Shown here piece after piece: positions 1 through 8,267 of a stretch of 8,267 bases of DNA. The DNA lies in contig JAKBGL010000037.1 in assembly GCA_021833085.1 (NCBI GenBank), positions 1,201 through 9,467 of the forward strand, in the 5' to 3' direction. The number at the start of each line of letters is the position of its first letter. The first letter of the stretch is position 1. Source of the DNA: Actinomycetes bacterium (GTDB lineage: Bacteria; Actinomycetota; Acidimicrobiia; Acidimicrobiales; Acidimicrobiaceae). A model generated the notes under the pieces. It was not told the DNA's origin. It worked only from the letters and a program-made list of their open reading frames with translations, and made no database searches. The position numbers and the translations under genes were made by a program.

Positions 1-110
1 ATGGAGGATCTAAAGGAACTCACCACAACAGATCTTTCATCGGTTGCGTCATGAAGAGTTTCACGATAAGTCCTAAACCACCGTTTGTTACGATAGGCGT
101 TACGACATGA
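1..110 (+). other. Window-edge sequence with two open frames, identity unknown
   Basis: Two forward frames are open from the window edge. One runs from position 1 to a TGA at 52-54 and reads MEDLKELTTTDLSSVAS. The other ends at a TGA at 108-110, which overlaps the ATG at 107-109 of the broken zinc-ribbon gene in an ATGA arrangement typical of translational coupling. I recognise neither peptide. The ATGA overlap hints that the second frame is the end of an upstream partner gene, but the 35 visible residues show no family motif. It may equally be decayed DNA. Confidence 0.2.
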
Positions 111-409
111 GTACGCTTTCATGAAAGTGGTGCGGTGCAACGTTTCCTTTATCTGGACGCCTCAAGTTCTGTAGCGATGCTCACAGACAGGCCAGCTATC
201 GGGCTAGAAGTAGATCTAACAGCACCAATGCTACTGTAACTGCTAAAAGACCTGACACCACTGTATATGAGTGCCCTAGTTGTGAACAGCGGTACCTTGG
301 GATTCAGAGATGCCCGGACTGTAACCTGTTCTGCTCTCGTGTTGGACCTGGAGGCTTATCTCCATACTGTGACGAATCGGTTGCCTACTTAGATCTCGAT
401 AACCGATAG
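107..409 (+). pseudogene. Broken small double zinc-ribbon protein
   Basis: Read from the ATG at 107, the frame gives MSTLS, then an in-frame TGA (122-124), then an open frame to TAG at 407-409. The rest begins KWCG and continues with FCSDAHRQASYRAR, YECPSCEQRYLG, RCPDCNLFC and GPGGLSPYCDE. This resembles small actinobacterial zinc-ribbon proteins, known to me from memory, of the form CxxCG...CSDACRQAAYR followed by YECPxCExRYLGEQRCPDCN...GLCPHCDEPV. The premature TGA sits exactly where the first Cys of the first CxxC should be. In the last pair the first Cys is Ser (SPYC). No alternative start codon exists in frame after the TGA. The loss of metal ligands and the stop together suggest a decaying gene. 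I have seen such proteins near mobile elements, but no transposase is visible here. Confidence 0.6.
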
Positions 410-469
410 ATACTCTACTTCCATTGTCAAGGACTAAATAAAGATCAAAAGTCAATGACAGTTCTATAA

Positions 470-682
470 CCATTTCCTAAGATAGACACAGTTCCAAAGA
501 CTCTGTGGCCCTATTTGCACAACTTTAGGTACACAACTAAGACGCCTTGCCGTCCATCCGGCGAGCGTTATGCTCGCCATCTCGGTCACCTCGACGACCT
601 AGTGCATAAGACATACAGCCCGTACGATCGCTTGAGACTGCGTGAACTGCTCCCAAATATTGATAACTCCGCAGGACTGTGA
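470..682 (+). pseudogene. Startless open frame, possible gene remnant
   Basis: A 70-codon frame is open between TAA (467-469) and TGA (680-682). It has no ATG or GTG start; the TTG at 515 is the only candidate and has no ribosome-binding site. The peptide looks protein-like towards its C-terminus (GERYARHLGHLDDLVHKTY, then SPYDRLRLRELLPNI), with amphipathic helical spacing and ordinary codon use. I cannot assign a family. It lies in the same reading frame as the broken zinc-ribbon gene 60 bp upstream, and its stop falls inside the inverted repeat at 662-691. It may be the 3' end of a decayed gene or chance. Confidence 0.3.
560..578. repeat. 7-bp perfect inverted repeat (hairpin)
   Basis: GGCGAGC and GCTCGCC flank the 5-base loop GTTAT. 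The stem is very GC-rich and perfect, but no T-run follows on either strand, so it does not look like an intrinsic terminator. It lies inside the startless open frame at 470-682. Confidence 0.5.
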
Positions 683-1065: not shown

Positions 1066-2007
1066 CTAGTGCTTTCTCAAGCCCCATCTTCGTTTAGATG
1101 TTACAATTAGATCGTCAGACTTTGGATCCCATCCTTGCTTTTCTAACTTGGTAGCTGATTTTTCAAACTGTTCACCGAATTGACCAGTTTGTTCAAAGAC
1201 TTTGTTTTTAAGTTCCATAGTGGTAAAAAACGGATGATTCTCGAGCTCTTCGCTGGTTTCGTCGTGAAGTGGCACATCTGAGTTACTGCTACCAATTCGG
1301 CTTCCAATATCTGTGTTTGGTTTCAAGTCGTCGAGTCCTTCGAGTAGCCCTTGCACTTCATTGTATGTGTCGATTGGGCGGGATGGAACTTGGATATTTT
1401 TTGCTGTAGTCGTTTCTGTTGAGCTAGGAGTATCTTGCTGTACTAATACAGGACATGGCTTGAGGGCTTCGCCCGACTTGAGTCCGAGGGCTGCCACACG
1501 GCTAAGTCGATTCCATACGTCTTGTGTTGAAAGTTTAGAGCCATAGTCGCTGGCGCAACCTTCCGTGGAGGGCTCATTCTCTGACTCATGCAATTGGCTG
1601 GAGTCCATACTTGAAGTGGATAGAGCATCGATAGGTGGTTGTTGGGACGAAGTATCTGAGCCGAAGTCATCTTCTTCAAAGTATGTGAATTTTCCATCGG
1701 TGCTTTTGGCTTCTAGGTGCGAGTAGGAGTTCTGTGAGTTGTCATCGTCACTTGACGACCCTAGTGGATAGAGAGACATCGTGGCAGCATGGTCACTCGA
1801 AAGTTCCAATTGTGAAGATCTGCTACTTTGCAGGTCTTCATTAGGGTCGGAATCTAGTTGTGCAGGTGCCGACTGAGCTGGATTATGAGTCGACTCAATC
1901 CATGAATGCTTATATGCGAAGCCTGGAGAGATGGAACTCCGATCTTTCGGCTCTACTTCAAACCAAGAAAATTCTGCGTTGTAAGACCTGCCGTCGCCTG
2001 TATTCAT
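1066..2007 (-). CDS. Ser/Asp/Glu-rich, probably disordered hypothetical protein (313 aa)
   Basis: I chose the ATG at 2005-2007 because AGGAG (2013-2017, read on the minus strand) sits exactly five bases upstream. A frame extension to a GTG at 2047-2049 adds 14 residues but has no well-placed ribosome-binding site. The protein opens with a possibly ordered segment (AEFSWFEVEPKDR, residues 11-23). It then becomes very rich in Ser, Asp, Glu and Gln over about residues 40-155, with runs such as SSSDDDNSQNS and FEEDDFGSD. A likely helix follows at about 160-180 (TQDVWNRLSRVAALGLKSGE), then another polar linker, then a charged C-terminus (about 265-313) with a helix ending in KRRWGLRKH. No signal peptide or membrane segment is seen. 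Short helices in acidic linkers with a basic tail suggest a flexible adaptor or scaffold, possibly phosphorylated; this is inference. No family recognised. Confidence 0.7.
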   Translation of the reverse strand: MNTGDGRSYNAEFSWFEVEPKDRSSISPGFAYKHSWIESTHNPAQSAPAQLDSDPNEDLQSSRSSQLELSSDHAATMSLYPLGSSSDDDNSQNSYSHLEAKSTDGKFTYFEEDDFGSDTSSQQPPIDALSTSSMDSSQLHESENEPSTEGCASDYGSKLSTQDVWNRLSRVAALGLKSGEALKPCPVLVQQDTPSSTETTTAKNIQVPSRPIDTYNEVQGLLEGLDDLKPNTDIGSRIGSSNSDVPLHDETSEELENHPFFTTMELKNKVFEQTGQFGEQFEKSATKLEKQGWDPKSDDLIVTSKRRWGLRKH

Positions 2008-2141
2008 TATCGCTCCTAATGTGTGTGTGCCCTTGCTTGGGGCCATCACCTACATCTTGTGTATCGACACTATGTGACTAATTACTTACTTGTAATCCGT
2101 CGATTTATCTAAATAATCACTTAGGGTGGCAGAATTAACTG

Positions 2142-3314
2142 TCATAACTTTACTCTTGTAAGCCAAGCATCGAAATCAGTCAGCTCGTCGGATGTTGGAA
2201 GATGTTCGTGGTTGCTTAGGGCAAGAGTTAGTTCGGCTTCGCAGTCTTTTTCAGTTACAAAAGTCGCAAATTCACTTGCAAGCTCGACAACGCGCGCTGA
2301 TATGTCTATTCCAAACATGCGACCCATAATCAACTCTGCTTGCGGCCCGTCTAAACGACGTCTTCGAGTTGCCTCCTCGATTAGGTAGTACTCTCCGAAG
2401 AGCGATAGCGCGACCTTTCGACTTACGATATTTAAGGCTGCCTCTAGAACGACAAGCGTAACTTCAATATTTGAGTAGTTTATGCGTTGAGCTTCGGTCA
2501 TCTCATTGCCTATTAGTTCTGTTGGGTCGGCGAAGATAGCCTGGAGCGCTTCGGGATCGGTGGGATTGATACCTTGAATCTTTTCGATCATGGCGTGTAC
2601 GTCTGCGCGCATGTCTGCTAGGTGTAGACGAATCTGTACGTCAAAGGTGTCACGAAAGTCTTCAATTCCAAGCACCAGGGTGGCCGTAAGTTCTTGAACC
2701 AAGAGCCAGAGGACTACTTGATCGTGATCAAGGTTCCACTCCTTTGCGAATTTGGCGACCGAGTATGGTGCCACGATAGTCTTGTTGAGGTCTTGCATGG
2801 GTATGGGAAGTTCGTAGGCTCTCAGCGCTTCCTTGCAGTAATGACCCAGAAGCGATCCAATCTGAGCACCCGAGATCATAGGTGCCATTGCGCTGCCCAG
2901 CTGGCTCATGATAGCTGCAAGAGGGTTGTCTGCATCCGAGACTTGCGACGTCGGTAACGTGTTTGCAGAGACAGCGAGGGTCTCCGAGAGAGTCGTTATA
3001 TAAGGCGACCAGGCCTTCGACAATGCGTCGACCAATTGTCTTGGATTGACTAATTCAAGTTTCGTTTTGGAGACGGCGACTCCTGATAACAGGTCTATGT
3101 TCGACACGTGGAGTTGAGCAAGCTCAAAGAGTTGCTCGTACTTTAGGCGCTCAAGGGGCTCAACGTTTGCTTCGTACTCAGGTTCTGATACTGGGAGTAA
3201 CGAGAACTGCCCAATAAAGTCCTGTGCATTGACGCTGTTGGACGTTAGGGTTTTCATTAGATCACTAAGTAGGAAATCAAATGGATTATTTGGCTCTGGA
3301 CTGTCCTCGCTCAT
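2142..3314 (-). CDS. DUF2342 / zinc-dependent metalloprotease family protein lacking the HExxH histidines
   Basis: The 390-residue protein fits the actinobacterial DUF2342 ('zinc-dependent metalloprotease', zincin-like) family. It has an N-terminal FDFLLSDLM segment, a Gly/Ala-rich helix with SGAQIGSLLGHY (148-159), an LPIP turn (169-172), and APYSVAKFAKEWNLDHDQVVLWL (182-204) just before the expected active site. The C-terminus carries GRMFGIDISARVVELA (331-346) and LPTSDELTDFDAWLTRV (372-388), which match the family's ending. The metal motif, normally LHEVTHH or similar, here reads VQELTA: Gln207 and Ala211 replace the two zinc-binding His, and only Glu208 remains. Peptidase activity is therefore unlikely. 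The ATG at 3312-3314 lacks a strong ribosome-binding site. In mycobacteria the homologue lies next to the YlbL-type PDZ protease gene, which is also in this window. The Ser-rich gene follows 134 bp downstream on the same strand. Confidence 0.85.
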   Translation of the reverse strand: MSEDSPEPNNPFDFLLSDLMKTLTSNSVNAQDFIGQFSLLPVSEPEYEANVEPLERLKYEQLFELAQLHVSNIDLLSGVAVSKTKLELVNPRQLVDALSKAWSPYITTLSETLAVSANTLPTSQVSDADNPLAAIMSQLGSAMAPMISGAQIGSLLGHYCKEALRAYELPIPMQDLNKTIVAPYSVAKFAKEWNLDHDQVVLWLLVQELTATLVLGIEDFRDTFDVQIRLHLADMRADVHAMIEKIQGINPTDPEALQAIFADPTELIGNEMTEAQRINYSNIEVTLVVLEAALNIVSRKVALSLFGEYYLIEEATRRRRLDGPQAELIMGRMFGIDISARVVELASEFATFVTEKDCEAELTLALSNHEHLPTSDELTDFDAWLTRVKL

Positions 3315-4226: not shown

Positions 4227-4694
4227 ATGAGGAACTACAGGATTGAAGTGAATACAAACATACTCATATCTATTCAAGAGGAAGAGATATCCATTTCGCA
4301 ACTTTACGACTTTTGCTTGGAGCCAGATTGTGGAGCTGTTGTCGTGTTTTCGGGTACCGTACGCAGTTTTTCTGAAGGAAGACTGAACGTAACCTCTCTT
4401 GTCTACGAGGCTTACACGGAACTAGCCATAAAGATGCTTTCTGAAATTGCCGAGAGGGTTTTTGAGTTGTATCAAGGAGTAAGGAAAATTGCTATTGTTC
4501 ACAGGCTAGGCTTGCTTAGCTTGTGTGAGTCATCTGTCGTTGTGGCCGTTTCTTCAGAACATCGGGAAGAGGCGTTTCAAGGAGCGAGGTTTGCTATAGA
4601 CACGTTGAAAGCTAGAGCACCGATTTGGAAGAAGGAGACCTGGTCTGGTGGAGAAGACTGGTCGGAAAACGCTTCGACGATTGTTGATTTGTAG
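4227..4694 (+). CDS. moaE: Molybdopterin synthase catalytic (large) subunit MoaE
   Basis: MoaE joins with the thiocarboxylated small subunit MoaD to put the dithiolene sulfurs into cyclic pyranopterin monophosphate, giving molybdopterin in the cytosol. The 155-residue protein has the usual length and motifs: CGAVVVFSGTVR (35-46), the YEAY segment (60-63), IVHRLG (90-95), SSEHREEAF (109-117) and the active-site block TLKARAPIWKKE (126-137). Lys128 and Lys135 match the conserved catalytic lysines of the E. coli enzyme's LKTRAPFWKRE block, so it should be active. The ATG at 4227 is the only reasonable start: an in-frame TAG lies at 4185 with no start codon between. It lacks a close ribosome-binding site (GGAG at 4201 is too far). 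No moaD, moaA or moaC is in the window, so its partner must be encoded elsewhere. It leads a plus-strand group with the small membrane protein and MreB-like genes. Confidence 0.93.
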   Translation: MRNYRIEVNTNILISIQEEEISISQLYDFCLEPDCGAVVVFSGTVRSFSEGRLNVTSLVYEAYTELAIKMLSEIAERVFELYQGVRKIAIVHRLGLLSLCESSVVVAVSSEHREEAFQGARFAIDTLKARAPIWKKETWSGGEDWSENASTIVDL

Positions 4695-4756: not shown

Positions 4757-4939
4757 GTGAGTGTTTTGCTTTACATAGTTGTTCCTGTGGCCGTATTTGT
4801 AGTCTTAGGACTTGCGTTCAGTTTGAAGGATCGTAAGCCCAAATCTTTCGAGTCGGGAATCGAGGACTTTTCAAAGACCATCCAAGCTCTATCTCACTCT
4901 GCGAAAAGTGTCAGACCGGTAAGTGGGAGTGAGGATTGA
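4757..4939 (+). CDS. Small single-pass membrane protein (60 aa)
   Basis: I chose the GTG at 4757 because AAGGGG (4743-4748) lies eight bases upstream. A GTG at 4748 would add three residues but overlaps that site. Residues 2-22 (SVLLYIVVPVAVFVVLGLAFS) form one strong hydrophobic helix. KDRKPK follows at once, so the positive-inside rule puts the C-terminal 35 polar residues in the cytosol. That tail has an amphipathic stretch (IEDFSKTIQALSHSA). I recognise no family. It ends one base before the start of the MreB-like gene, which strongly suggests co-translation. A membrane-anchor or partner role for that protein is a natural guess but only inferred from position. Confidence 0.75.
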   Translation: MSVLLYIVVPVAVFVVLGLAFSLKDRKPKSFESGIEDFSKTIQALSHSAKSVRPVSGSED

Positions 4940-4940
4940 T

Positions 4941-5939
4941 GTGGACAACATATGCGCGGTTGACATAGGCGCAAGTCGTTCACGAGTCTGCCTTAGTGGA
5001 AAGGGATTGATCTACGACTCTATTTCGTCGATCGCTGTTGACGTAGCTTCTAACAATATCAAAGCTTGCGGAGAGGCGGCACTTGAACTCGTACGTAAAA
5101 GTGGTGGTCGGTACGTTATCAAGACTCCCTTCAAGGGAGGTATAACCTCAGATCCGAACATCTTGGCACCGTATTTGCGTGCCTTGTTTCACCAAATAGG
5201 TCTTGCCTCTCCCTCGAAGTACAAACTTGGAGTGGCAATACCGTCGCGTCTGACTCCCTTGGAGACGGATGTTTTGGGAGAGTGCGTTAGAGATGTTGGA
5301 GCCAAAGGGGTTTTTCTCGTGCCTGCACTACTAGCTGCAGCTCTGAGCGCTGGTATGGATGGTTCAAAGGCAGACGGCTTTATGGTGATGCTCGTCGGTG
5401 CTTCAAGAACGGAGTCATCCGTCTTTTCTCTTGGACAGATGACCGTAGTCCAGACATCAGAACTCGGCGGTTCGATAATTGGAGAGAAAATCGCGCGATT
5501 GATTATGGATCGCTATGGACTGATTGTTTCAACTGACACCGTCGAACAGGTAAAACAACATCTCATTACTCTTTCACCTAGAACTAAAATCAGAGTTGCA
5601 GATCTCTGGGGTCGAGATTCAAGAACAGGTGAGAGTCGCCAAGTCCGGGTCGAAGACTCTATCTTTATTGAAGAGGTAGCGTCTATATTTAATGAGATTG
5701 CTTCCGTGCCTTCTTTAGTTTTTTCCAACTGCGACGCTGAGTTGGTTTCAGATATAAGTTACCAAGGACTTCATATGGTAGGAGGCGTATCGGTTGTATC
5801 AGGACTTAAAGAGTTGGTAGAGCGACGATCGCAGGTGTTGGTTTCACTTCAGTCAAAGCCCTCTACTGCTGTGATTGAAGGTATCTTGTCGCTTATGACC
5901 GGAGGTTCAAAGGTAACGAGGGCGCTATCACTGTCGTAG
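4941..5939 (+). CDS. MreB-like actin-fold protein with degraded nucleotide-site motifs
   Basis: I chose the GTG at 4941 because GAGG (4931-4934) lies six bases upstream; GTG at 4923 or 4929 would extend the protein slightly. The 332 residues align along MreB: AVDIGASRS (6-14) for phosphate-1 (MreB SIDLGTANT), KTPFKGGITSD (61-71) for RPMKDGVIAD, VAIPSRLTPLETDVL (98-112), VFLVPALLAAALSAG (124-138) for VFLIEEPMAAAIGAG, MVMLVGASRTESSVFS (148-163) for MVVDIGGGTTEVAVIS, ELGGSIIGEKIARLIMDRYG (174-193), and HMVGGVSVVSGL (278-289) for the adenosine motif. The Glu of EEP is Ala129. The phosphate-2 Asp is Leu151 and its Gly-Gly-Gly is Gly-Ala-Ser. ATP hydrolysis therefore looks lost or greatly changed. 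Family members polymerise under the membrane and guide wall growth; this one may be a regulatory relative. Its end overlaps the HEAT-repeat gene by 12 bp. Confidence 0.75.
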   Translation: MDNICAVDIGASRSRVCLSGKGLIYDSISSIAVDVASNNIKACGEAALELVRKSGGRYVIKTPFKGGITSDPNILAPYLRALFHQIGLASPSKYKLGVAIPSRLTPLETDVLGECVRDVGAKGVFLVPALLAAALSAGMDGSKADGFMVMLVGASRTESSVFSLGQMTVVQTSELGGSIIGEKIARLIMDRYGLIVSTDTVEQVKQHLITLSPRTKIRVADLWGRDSRTGESRQVRVEDSIFIEEVASIFNEIASVPSLVFSNCDAELVSDISYQGLHMVGGVSVVSGLKELVERRSQVLVSLQSKPSTAVIEGILSLMTGGSKVTRALSLS

Positions 5940-6557
5940 CAGGTCTTCGGCGATAGACCTAACTTGAAAGTCTCGATCAGCCGTTGCCTTTTCCAGAGCC
6001 TTATCGACAGCGGCTCCTTCGAAGGCGGAGAGTGCAACTACAGCTCTTCTTCGTATGTAGACTTTGTCATCTAGGCCACCGAGCACGACTGAAAGGGACT
6101 GGGGAGCGCCGATCGATCCCAACGCCGCAATGGCAGACTCTCGTACTAAGTCATTGGGATGGGAAACTGCTAACTGCTCGAGCCGTTCTTTGAACTGTAC
6201 GTCTTGTAGCTCGCCTGCGCTGAAACAAGCTGCCTCTAAGACGTCCACAGCATCATCTTGTTTGAGAAGTTTATGCAGGATCCTTTGGTATCTACGAGCG
6301 TAGGTAAGAGCTACTTGTGTTGAAAGTTCTTTGAAGGTTAAATCCCTTGTCAGGTTGTCCACGAAGCTTTCTGGTAGGTTGTAGTCTTGTCGCCAAAGGG
6401 CCTGAATAGCCAAGGACGCATTGATGTCTGCATCGGAGTCGAAGGTCTTTGGTAGATCTAGGTGTTTCAACAGAGCGCCTGAGTCCTTGTTTAGGGCATC
6501 CTTTGCTATTGTGAATAGAGAGCGTCGTTGGATCATGTAGAGGTGTTGGTTGTTCAT
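5928..6557 (-). CDS. HEAT-repeat protein (209 aa)
   Basis: The C-terminal half has HEAT-type helical repeats: residues about 102-131 (DAVDVLEAACFSAGELQDVQFKERL), 136-165 (DLVRESAIAALGSIGAPQSL), 166-192 (VYIRRRAVVALSAFEG) and a final half repeat 197-209 (FQVRSIAEDLLRQ). The pattern V-R-x-x-A-(I/V)-x-A-L is typical. HEAT arrays are protein-binding scaffolds; no catalytic lyase motif is evident. The N-terminal 100 residues are helical and of unknown type. There is no signal peptide or membrane segment, so it should be cytosolic. The start is ATG at 6555-6557. It has no ribosome-binding site, but a TATAGA box lies 11 bases upstream, which fits a nearly leaderless transcript. It converges on the MreB-like gene and overlaps its last 12 bp. 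Confidence 0.8.
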   Translation of the reverse strand: MNNQHLYMIQRRSLFTIAKDALNKDSGALLKHLDLPKTFDSDADINASLAIQALWRQDYNLPESFVDNLTRDLTFKELSTQVALTYARRYQRILHKLLKQDDAVDVLEAACFSAGELQDVQFKERLEQLAVSHPNDLVRESAIAALGSIGAPQSLSVVLGGLDDKVYIRRRAVVALSAFEGAAVDKALEKATADRDFQVRSIAEDLLRQ

Positions 6558-6622: not shown

Positions 6623-7654
6623 TTGGCGAGGTTAGAGATAAGGTGGAAATTCTTCTTTCTGGCGCTACCTTTTGTGATAGTTGTTGGTTGGGCTATTGGG
6701 TTTTCCATTCCGTACTACTCGATTTCGCCCGGTGATGCATTGGATACTTCCTCGCTAATCTCGGTTCCGCATGCATCACCGCAAAGGTACAAGCACTCGA
6801 TATTTATGACGGATGTGACGCTAACGCACCTAACACCGATTCTCTGGTTGTTTGATCACCTGGCTTCTAACGTTACGATCTATCCAGCCTCTGAAATAGT
6901 CGGAAATGCAGACTCTTCACAGTTCAGTCAACAACAGCTTTCGCAGATGGCAAACGCTAAACTTGCTGCTGGTGTAGCAGCATTTAAATATCTTCATCGA
7001 TTTGTCCCTGAGGTGTATGGAGCTGAAGTTTTAGCGGTAGTCCCAGGTACACCTGCTGCAGGGATCTTGCAACCAGGGGACCTGATTACAAAAGTAGGAT
7101 CATACTCGATCACGTCAATGAAGACGTTCTCCACTTCCGTAAGTTCAAGCTCGCCCGGCGCAACGGTGAAGTTGAGCGTAATCCGCCAGAGCACAAGTTC
7201 AAGCTCCCTTGCTTTTCGACACCGTACTTTTACCGTCAAGTTAGGCGAGGACCCGAGAGATCCGAAACAAGCTTTTTTAGGTGTTGAGTTTACGCAAGGC
7301 GTGTTCTACGCTCTACCTGGATCTATCAGGATTTCGACTGGCGCAATCGGTGGCCCGTCTGCGGGGCTCGCTTTTACTTTACAGCTTGTTCAGGAGCTCT
7401 CTCATCGAAGATTCAATCAAAAAGTGGAAGTTGCAGCCACAGGTACAATAGCTCCTAATGGAGCCGTTGGTGAAGTCGGCGGTGTGCCCCAAAAAGCAGT
7501 TGCAGTTTATCGAGCTGGCGTGAGAGTATTTTTAGTTCCAGTGCAACAGGTAGCTCAAGCTCATACGTATGTGGGTAATAGATTAAAGATAGTTGGGGTT
7601 TCATCTCTTTCACAGGCAATTGATATAATAAAGCATCTGCGAAGTACCGCTTAG
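6623..7654 (+). CDS. YlbL-type membrane-anchored PDZ-Lon (S16) protease
   Basis: This matches the PDZ-domain Lon-like protease family (YlbL; Rv3194c in M. tuberculosis). The TTG start at 6623 follows AGGTG (6613-6617) at a good distance, and no better start is in frame. Order: membrane helix at about 9-29 (KFFFLALPFVIVVGWAIGFS), an extracytoplasmic SPGDALD segment (35-41), a PDZ domain at about 130-205 with GAEVLAVVPGTPAAGILQPG (133-152), then a Lon proteolytic domain at about 215-343. The catalytic Ser246 lies in GGPSAG (243-248) and Lys291 in GVPQKAVA (287-294), after the family's TGTIAPNGAVGEVGG segment. The dyad is intact, so an active protease facing the outside is expected, without an ATPase domain. 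The coiled-coil gene starts 18 bp downstream, likely in one operon. Confidence 0.92.
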   Translation: MARLEIRWKFFFLALPFVIVVGWAIGFSIPYYSISPGDALDTSSLISVPHASPQRYKHSIFMTDVTLTHLTPILWLFDHLASNVTIYPASEIVGNADSSQFSQQQLSQMANAKLAAGVAAFKYLHRFVPEVYGAEVLAVVPGTPAAGILQPGDLITKVGSYSITSMKTFSTSVSSSSPGATVKLSVIRQSTSSSSLAFRHRTFTVKLGEDPRDPKQAFLGVEFTQGVFYALPGSIRISTGAIGGPSAGLAFTLQLVQELSHRRFNQKVEVAATGTIAPNGAVGEVGGVPQKAVAVYRAGVRVFLVPVQQVAQAHTYVGNRLKIVGVSSLSQAIDIIKHLRSTA

Positions 7655-7672: not shown

Positions 7673-8267
7673 ATGCGCGTCAACAAAGAAGGCGAAGGGT
7701 TGTCAAGCGAAGGATCAGAGACCACACCACGGTTTCCTACAGTACGCAAAGGACTAGATCAGAGAGAGGTCTACCCCTACATCGAGCGTCTTCGATTGCA
7801 GATCGAGGGACTCCAGCGTCAAAATGAACTCCTCAAAGATGAAGTAGGTGAGCTGCGACGGCAGGTTGAGAACCCAGTTTTGGATATTGACAAAGTTACC
7901 GAGGTTTTTGGAAAGCAAGCCTCGGAGATACTAAGAAGTGCCCATGACATAGGCTCTTCTATTCGTAAGCGGGCAGAACTCAACGCTAGAGACATCGTCT
8001 CTAGAGCTGAACGAGAAGCCACAGACCTTGAACTTCAAGCGTCGGTCTCTGCCGAAGCACAGATGACTGAAGCGGCCGAGCGTGCCAAGGAAATTGTTGA
8101 ACGGGCTAAGTCAGAAGCGGCCGAGATCATTACTTTAGCAGAACAAGGCGCTCAAAGCATCTCCGAACGGGCTAAGTCAGAAGGTAGATCCCTCTTGCAT
8201 CGCGCGCGCGAGTTGAGAAGCAAGGTCTTCAACGAGATGCAGACTAGAATAGAGCTACTAAACGGAG
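7673..8267 (+). CDS. DivIVA-like coiled-coil protein, cut by the window end
   Basis: The frame is open from the ATG at 7673 to the window edge (198 codons, no stop). Residues 21-60 follow the DivIVA N-terminal pattern, FPTVRKGLDQREVYPYIERL then LRLQIEGLQRQNELLKDEV. Residues 74-83 (DIDKVTEVFG) lead into a long Ala/Glu/Arg/Lys coiled coil (AERAKEIVERAKSEAAEII and similar) that continues to the edge. DivIVA/Wag31 proteins bind curved membrane at poles and septa and organise wall growth in Actinobacteria; here the role is inferred from family and place. The ATG has no strong ribosome-binding site. A TTG at 7700, preceded by AGAAGG, is an alternative start that would keep the whole DivIVA-like domain. 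It may be co-transcribed with the protease gene 18 bp upstream. Confidence 0.7.
   Translation, partial: MRVNKEGEGLSSEGSETTPRFPTVRKGLDQREVYPYIERLRLQIEGLQRQNELLKDEVGELRRQVENPVLDIDKVTEVFGKQASEILRSAHDIGSSIRKRAELNARDIVSRAEREATDLELQASVSAEAQMTEAAERAKEIVERAKSEAAEIITLAEQGAQSISERAKSEGRSLLHRARELRSKVFNEMQTRIELLNG
8099..8183. repeat. Exact 19-bp direct repeat inside the coiled-coil gene
   Basis: GAACGGGCTAAGTCAGAAG occurs at 8099-8117 and 8165-8183, 66 bp (22 codons) apart and in frame, encoding ERAKSE twice. GAAGCGGCCGAG also repeats in frame at 8069-8080 and 8114-8125. Identity at the DNA level points to recent internal duplication of coiled-coil segments. Confidence 0.7.

Follow-up and report, generated by a model that had tools for sequence, protein, structure and literature searches.

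The stretch of DNA described here (the window, 8,267 nucleotides, contig JAKBGL010000037.1 of an Acidimicrobiaceae genome, GCA_021833085.1) carries a gene for a DUF2342/Zincin_2 (PF10103) protein in which QELTA stands in place of the zinc-binding motif HExxH. The family falls into two paralogous subfamilies, called A and B here, and the window gene is probably a pseudo-metallopeptidase of subfamily B that is kept for a non-catalytic binding role. Loss of the motif, an intact reading frame, purifying selection, a conserved locus and co-occurrence with a gene for a PDZ-Lon (YlbL/SepM-like) protein were all shown by computation. Judged by its sequence, the protein is a real pseudo-zincin and one case of a subfamily-wide pattern, for which a partner and a function can be proposed conditionally. 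The wider reading, in which subfamily B consists phylum-wide of mostly pseudo-zincins with a non-catalytic job tied to the PDZ-Lon (YlbL/SepM-type) pathway, the zinc site having been lost several times in positional orthologues, is advanced tentatively, as a serious possibility. The features of the gene are as follows.

2142..3314, minus strand: DUF2342/Zincin_2 (PF10103) protein of subfamily B, putative pseudo-zincin, 390 amino acids (Pfam match, reading frame)
2682..2696, minus strand: QELTA replacing HExxH, residues 207-211 (codons CAA GAA CTT ACG GCC, 2696..2682)
2442..2444, minus strand: Glu291, presumed third zinc ligand (counterpart of a Glu that 111 of 112 subfamily A rows retain; coordinates from the reading frame)

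The altered zinc site

The gene reads from 3314 to 2142 as 390 codons with zero internal stops. A preliminary description of this DNA had claimed that both zinc-binding His are lost from an otherwise intact gene while Glu208 is kept, and the codons 207-211 bear this out: Gln207 is encoded by CAA, a single base from CAC/CAT, and Ala211 by GCC, with Glu208 retained. In a phmmer comparison, QELTA lies opposite HEMTH of 3CMN, a putative hydrolase of Chloroflexus aurantiacus and the one solved structure matched, by sequence, to the window protein, and similarity flanks the motif on both sides. PF10103 matches residues 51-385 over profile positions 22-344 of 344 (123.6 bits, cut-off 25). The protein is assigned to the 3CMN fold of PF10103, its own fold being predicted to be intact, but with QELTA it lacks the HExxH by which a zinc-dependent metallopeptidase (zincin) is defined. 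No second HExxH, which would have spoken against the loss, was found when the whole translation was read by eye. Glu291 is retained as well, and its role as a zinc ligand is presumed from conservation and position.

The genome bin holds its own copy of the window (contig C60), which differs by 22 mismatches across 7102 shared bases and encodes the same QELTA. Three PF10103 genes are present in this genome, namely those on C66 (HELTH), C60/window (QELTA) and C153 (QELTV), and congeners carry QELTT (G002, a partial gene) and QEMTT (G003). Because the same QELTA recurs in the genome copy and related motifs in the second copy and the congeners, sequencing error and misalignment are both excluded as explanations of the motif.

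Purifying selection on the B frame is supported for the pairs measured. The ratio of nonsynonymous to synonymous substitution rates (dN/dS; Nei-Gojobori, own script) was 0.021-0.074 in five B pairs with dS <1, including 0.074 for the window's own pair (from 222 codons), and 0.063 and 0.079 in two A pairs; other pairs were near or past saturation and are unquoted. Lost catalytic residues, an intact frame and purifying selection, the three marks of a pseudoenzyme, are thus found together in the window protein. Ordinary decay, with the B gene heading for loss, is very improbable: repeated motif loss and the erosion of some B-specific residues in the window's own family would suit it, but dN/dS is low and close to the A values, frames are free of stops at all B places of the genome survey, and one locus is kept across the class.

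Motif loss across subfamilies A and B

Of 60 genomes searched, the own one among them, most have two PF10103 matches. The profile search that started from A1 gave only 7 proteins, because its scoring was limited to candidates with shared exact words. Sequences from loci were sorted by profile score into 112 A and 177 B, a split based on score and locus and not on a clean tree, and HExxH is kept in 111 of 112 A versus 39 of 177 B. The same number of A rows (111/112) keep both HExxH and the Glu; the lone A row without HExxH (L291) stands on a very long branch, and one sequence with an A score (L264) groups with a B row. Of 179 B rows (two database proteins included), 12 have the complete set of HExxH and Glu291, and 109 have lost Glu291, among them 27 of the 39 HExxH-bearing ones. 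By kinship to the window, HExxH is found in 0/30 B rows of the family, 0/1 of the genus, 0/2 of the own genome, 5/27 of the order, 1/2 of the class, 20/76 of named loci and 13/39 of other phylum rows, where rows <230 amino acids were dropped, some rows are near copies, and the named loci are the best 80 of 289 by similarity to motif-bearing B, so their share is not a census. Outside these counts stand 127 database proteins, picked likewise by similarity, with HExxH in 14.

The motif was replaced in many different ways. Losses in the wider phylum include REAAH, TEAAH, HDxxR and others, and the pocket letters vary by clade (REH, NQM, QEV, DDR, SEH, TEH and others). The preliminary description had asked whether a clade shares QExxA; loss of HExxH is general in paralogue B, and QELTA was discarded as a lineage-specific trait, the own-family sample being all without HExxH but with other letters. 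The pseudoprotease reading given there stands insofar as the motif is gone, selection is purifying and the fold is predicted to be intact, but QELTA is not special to the window protein.

A tree of 118 representatives (motif columns left out, midpoint root) unites 17 rows, from the own family and the database proteins nearest to it, in a supported group (95) in which every row is without HExxH. Elsewhere HExxH-bearing and motif-less B are intermixed, with 16 changes for the lost state (B_lost), at least 8 of them on well supported branches. Such counts by themselves do not separate gain from loss, but repeated loss is the simpler reading because A and 3CMN carry HExxH. Many branches have weak support, 45 of 115 being open. 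On weak branches the midpoint root puts 11 B rows together with A, 4 of them HExxH-bearing and 7 motif-less; they were retained in B because genomes of the same families show the B neighbourhood, in f36 (G066, G106) and in f30 (B <=10 kb from PDZ-Lon). Scattered homologues under neutral drift had been named beforehand as the observation that would overturn the idea of a kept pseudoprotease; motif-less B is indeed scattered on the tree, but the pairs measured are not neutral.

The two subfamilies correspond to known models. TIGR03883, the F420-biosynthesis-associated DUF2342, is subfamily A, of the same fold family as the window protein: the A paralogue on C66 of the own bin scores 265.6 bits (cut-off 171.35), whereas the window protein scores 65.9, and A keeps HExxH and the Glu while the window protein is without HExxH. 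The F420-type Haloferax member HVO_2770 is described as retaining zinc-coordinating residues, and transposon insertions in hvo_2770 are listed for hypochlorite-tolerant Haloferax (PMC6267482). TIGR03624 (putative hydrolase) lies on the side of subfamily B; no other NCBIfam model fits the window protein better (109.6 bits), and the B members L076, L194 and L274 pass its curated cut-off of 136.05, while the window protein, like its nearest relatives L003 and L037, stays under it. Where JGI gives a database name, it is "coenzyme F420 biosynthesis associated" for A and "putative hydrolase" for B. Among 120 listed B-type proteins, 9 are named "zinc-dependent metalloprotease", and 8 of these are without HExxH; P0010, P0014, P0021, P0034, P0039, P0067, P0068 and P0107 bear this name in public records, yet have SExxT or SExxS. 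If the reading of B as pseudo-zincins is true, much of this actinobacterial subfamily is misnamed.

Lenart et al. (2013) report HExxH in 43% of DUF2342 members and judge a metalloprotease function most likely conserved (PMC3650047). Inactive metallopeptidases are known in other families: according to a 2024 review, FtsHi and ADAMs have HExxH replaced by REAAV, NEAAM, QSLAQ etc. and serve non-catalytic roles (PMC11266112). The window protein resembles these in its replaced motif and intact gene, but they are eukaryotic and of other families, whereas it is a bacterial zincin, predicted to be cytosolic, and the losses at its one locus span many lineages.

As the preliminary description had suggested looking for, a canonical HELTH paralogue is present in the own bin and in three congeners, of which G003, with one B (QEMTT) and one A (HELTH), is a cleaner case than the own bin. 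This pairing of a pseudoenzyme with its cognate enzyme would fit B as a regulator of active paralogue A, but that role is scarcely probable: G041 (single contig), G124 and G145 hold motif-less B and no A, and A occurs without B in 21 of 99 genomes. In family f7, three genomes that are 98-99% complete each hold a single PF10103 gene, without HExxH, which makes it unlikely that B serves solely A.

The locus, the PDZ-Lon gene and a proposed binding role

The other genes of the window are as follows.

1066..2049, minus strand: 327-residue protein, encoded downstream of the zincin (7 of 125 B loci have a homologue)
4227..4694, plus strand: MoaE-family protein, a conserved divergent neighbour of the B gene (family match, locus comparison)
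4923..5939, plus strand: MreB-like protein, a conserved divergent neighbour of the B gene (PF06723, 187.6 bits)
5928..6557, minus strand: HEAT-repeat protein, frequent neighbour (family match, locus comparison)
6623..7654, plus strand: PDZ-Lon (YlbL/SepM-like) protein (Lon-type Ser246, Lys291; one strong N-terminal hydrophobic segment)
7673..8266, plus strand: DivIVA-domain protein, continuing past the window end (family match)

Among 125 B loci in Acidimicrobiia with stretches of >=5 kb, the MreB-like gene was found at 110, MoaE at 108, HEAT at 80 and PDZ-Lon at 66, in searches with single window proteins and with many stretches stopping too early. Where at least 6.5 kb upstream is present, MoaE occurs at 68/72 loci without and 17/18 with HExxH, and PDZ-Lon at 47/72 and 13/18; these frequencies being similar, the position of the locus is independent of HExxH. 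The 327-residue protein has zero Pfam or NCBIfam matches; a protein similar to it likewise lies next to the B copy on C153.

A PDZ-Lon gene had been mentioned in the preliminary description as a neighbour of the family elsewhere; linkage and co-occurrence agree with this, and such a gene lies inside the window itself. Among 20 phylum- and class-level B loci fetched, PDZ-Lon gave a strong match at 15, a weak one only at 3 and none at 2, and in 37 of 48 B genomes the two genes are <=10 kb apart (median 2.8 kb). Across 99 genomes of the phylum, the own genome excluded, PDZ-Lon is present in 46/48 genomes with B, 3/21 with A only and 0/30 without PF10103 (Fisher p 4.9e-22); when genomes are pooled by family, the counts become 18/2/2/19 (p 1.7e-7), in which shared ancestry partly remains. 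PDZ-Lon was called from NF041438 at >=70 bits, under the curated cut-off of 200, and includes a few partial matches of 74-80 bits (e.g. G041, G095, G128). L264 (G102) was entered as B, and so was G083, whose sequence is partial and lies next to a weak PDZ-Lon match, a mildly circular choice; G010, scored without PDZ-Lon, has a weak 24% match ~6 kb off. B is thus both linked to and co-occurring with PDZ-Lon, as is expected of partner genes. A 2019 survey of PDZ genes gives coaD and rsmD as PDZ-Lon neighbours, only genes <=50 nt away being counted (PMC6411480).

From these figures B could regulate the PDZ-Lon protease directly or serve as its adaptor, as the preliminary description suggested, and the strong co-occurrence, the short distances and the strong matches at phylum-level loci favour this. 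The predicted topology speaks against it and makes it quite unlikely. In the window PDZ-Lon, Ser246 and Lys291 sit at the places of the Lon dyad, and its one strong hydrophobic segment (residues 11-29) has basic residues ahead, so the protease domain should face outside. YlbL of Bacillus subtilis, a PDZ-Lon with a Ser-Lys dyad, is given a likely extracellular location (PMC6051672). In the B protein, inspection by eye revealed no signal peptide, and hydropathy gave no clear membrane helix (Kyte-Doolittle maximum 1.72, peaking at the motif helix); the protein would stay in the cytosol and hence hardly come into contact with that domain.

For a binding role the following mechanism is proposed. 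With both His gone, the window protein should be unable to build the normal His-His-Glu zinc site, Glu208 and Glu291 being kept, and ordinary zinc-protease activity should be absent. The B protein would fold like 3CMN, remain cytosolic and act by binding, as a scaffold or adaptor, in an envelope or division-related process of PDZ-Lon, the MreB-like protein and DivIVA. Catalysis would have turned dispensable in subfamily B and been lost several times, the binding role being retained. If this is true, PDZ-Lon is the first functional lead for subfamily B, and orthologues with and without the motif at one locus are a natural experiment that parts binding from catalysis and a test of a protease fold that does not cut. 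A literature search on DUF2342/Zincin_2, Rv3195, Rv3194c and the family ids found no study of subfamily B function in the texts available.

Several observations weigh against the binding role. MoaE is equally conserved as a neighbour in Acidimicrobiia; PDZ-Lon is >10 kb off or on another contig in 9 of 48 B genomes, among which one single-contig genome has it 551 kb from B, and it is absent from 2 of 48. Several B-specific residues are less conserved in the window's own family than in other B, and part of the ancestral B surface may have changed there. In addition, the pocket seems to matter still and might hold other chemistry or another metal: in 34 own-family rows, in which the window protein is probably counted twice, residue 207 is R, N, Q, D or E throughout, never hydrophobic, and 208 always E, Q or D, with 211 variable. 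MAB_3501 of Mycobacterium abscessus is a possible member of subfamily B, to which the mycobacterial genes would belong. This "putative hydrolase", equated with Rv3195, was detected by a beta-lactone activity probe (PMC12101465), although labelling need not mean activity.

These pocket residues and the probe also favour B as an enzyme of altered chemistry, whose pocket (polar 207, acidic 208, often Glu291) uses another metal or none, as does the retention of Glu208 by 86 of the 105 motif-less B rows that lie beyond the own family. This is considered unlikely, since a shared new chemistry should leave a shared signature, while the pocket residues depend on the clade, 211 varies, and Glu291 is so often gone, even beside HExxH. 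A salt bridge replacing zinc (Arg/Lys at 207 or 211 with an acid at 291), an attractive idea from the list of motifs, was also considered: the association is weak in the 69 motif-less B rows of the tree (19/9/18/23, Fisher p 0.084), tree-independent pairs are too few for a decision, and the bridge stays unproven.

Two versions of the locus in the source bin

The locus occurs in the bin in two versions, one on C60 (window) and one on C153 plus C27, with ~74-77% DNA identity between them. The block from MoaE to DivIVA is doubled together with the zincin gene, the second version being divided between C27 (L325) and C153 (L035). At first impression C153 (QELTV) looked like a recent duplication, but a contamination of 2.37% is reported for the bin, for which reason two related species sharing one bin are the simpler and probable explanation, a duplication being less likely. 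Furthermore, the left end of the window (1-540) resembles part of contig C135 in this genome (74% identity), and roughly 100 bases within it (433-537) recur on two other contigs at 90-91%, possibly a dispersed repeat close to a contig end.
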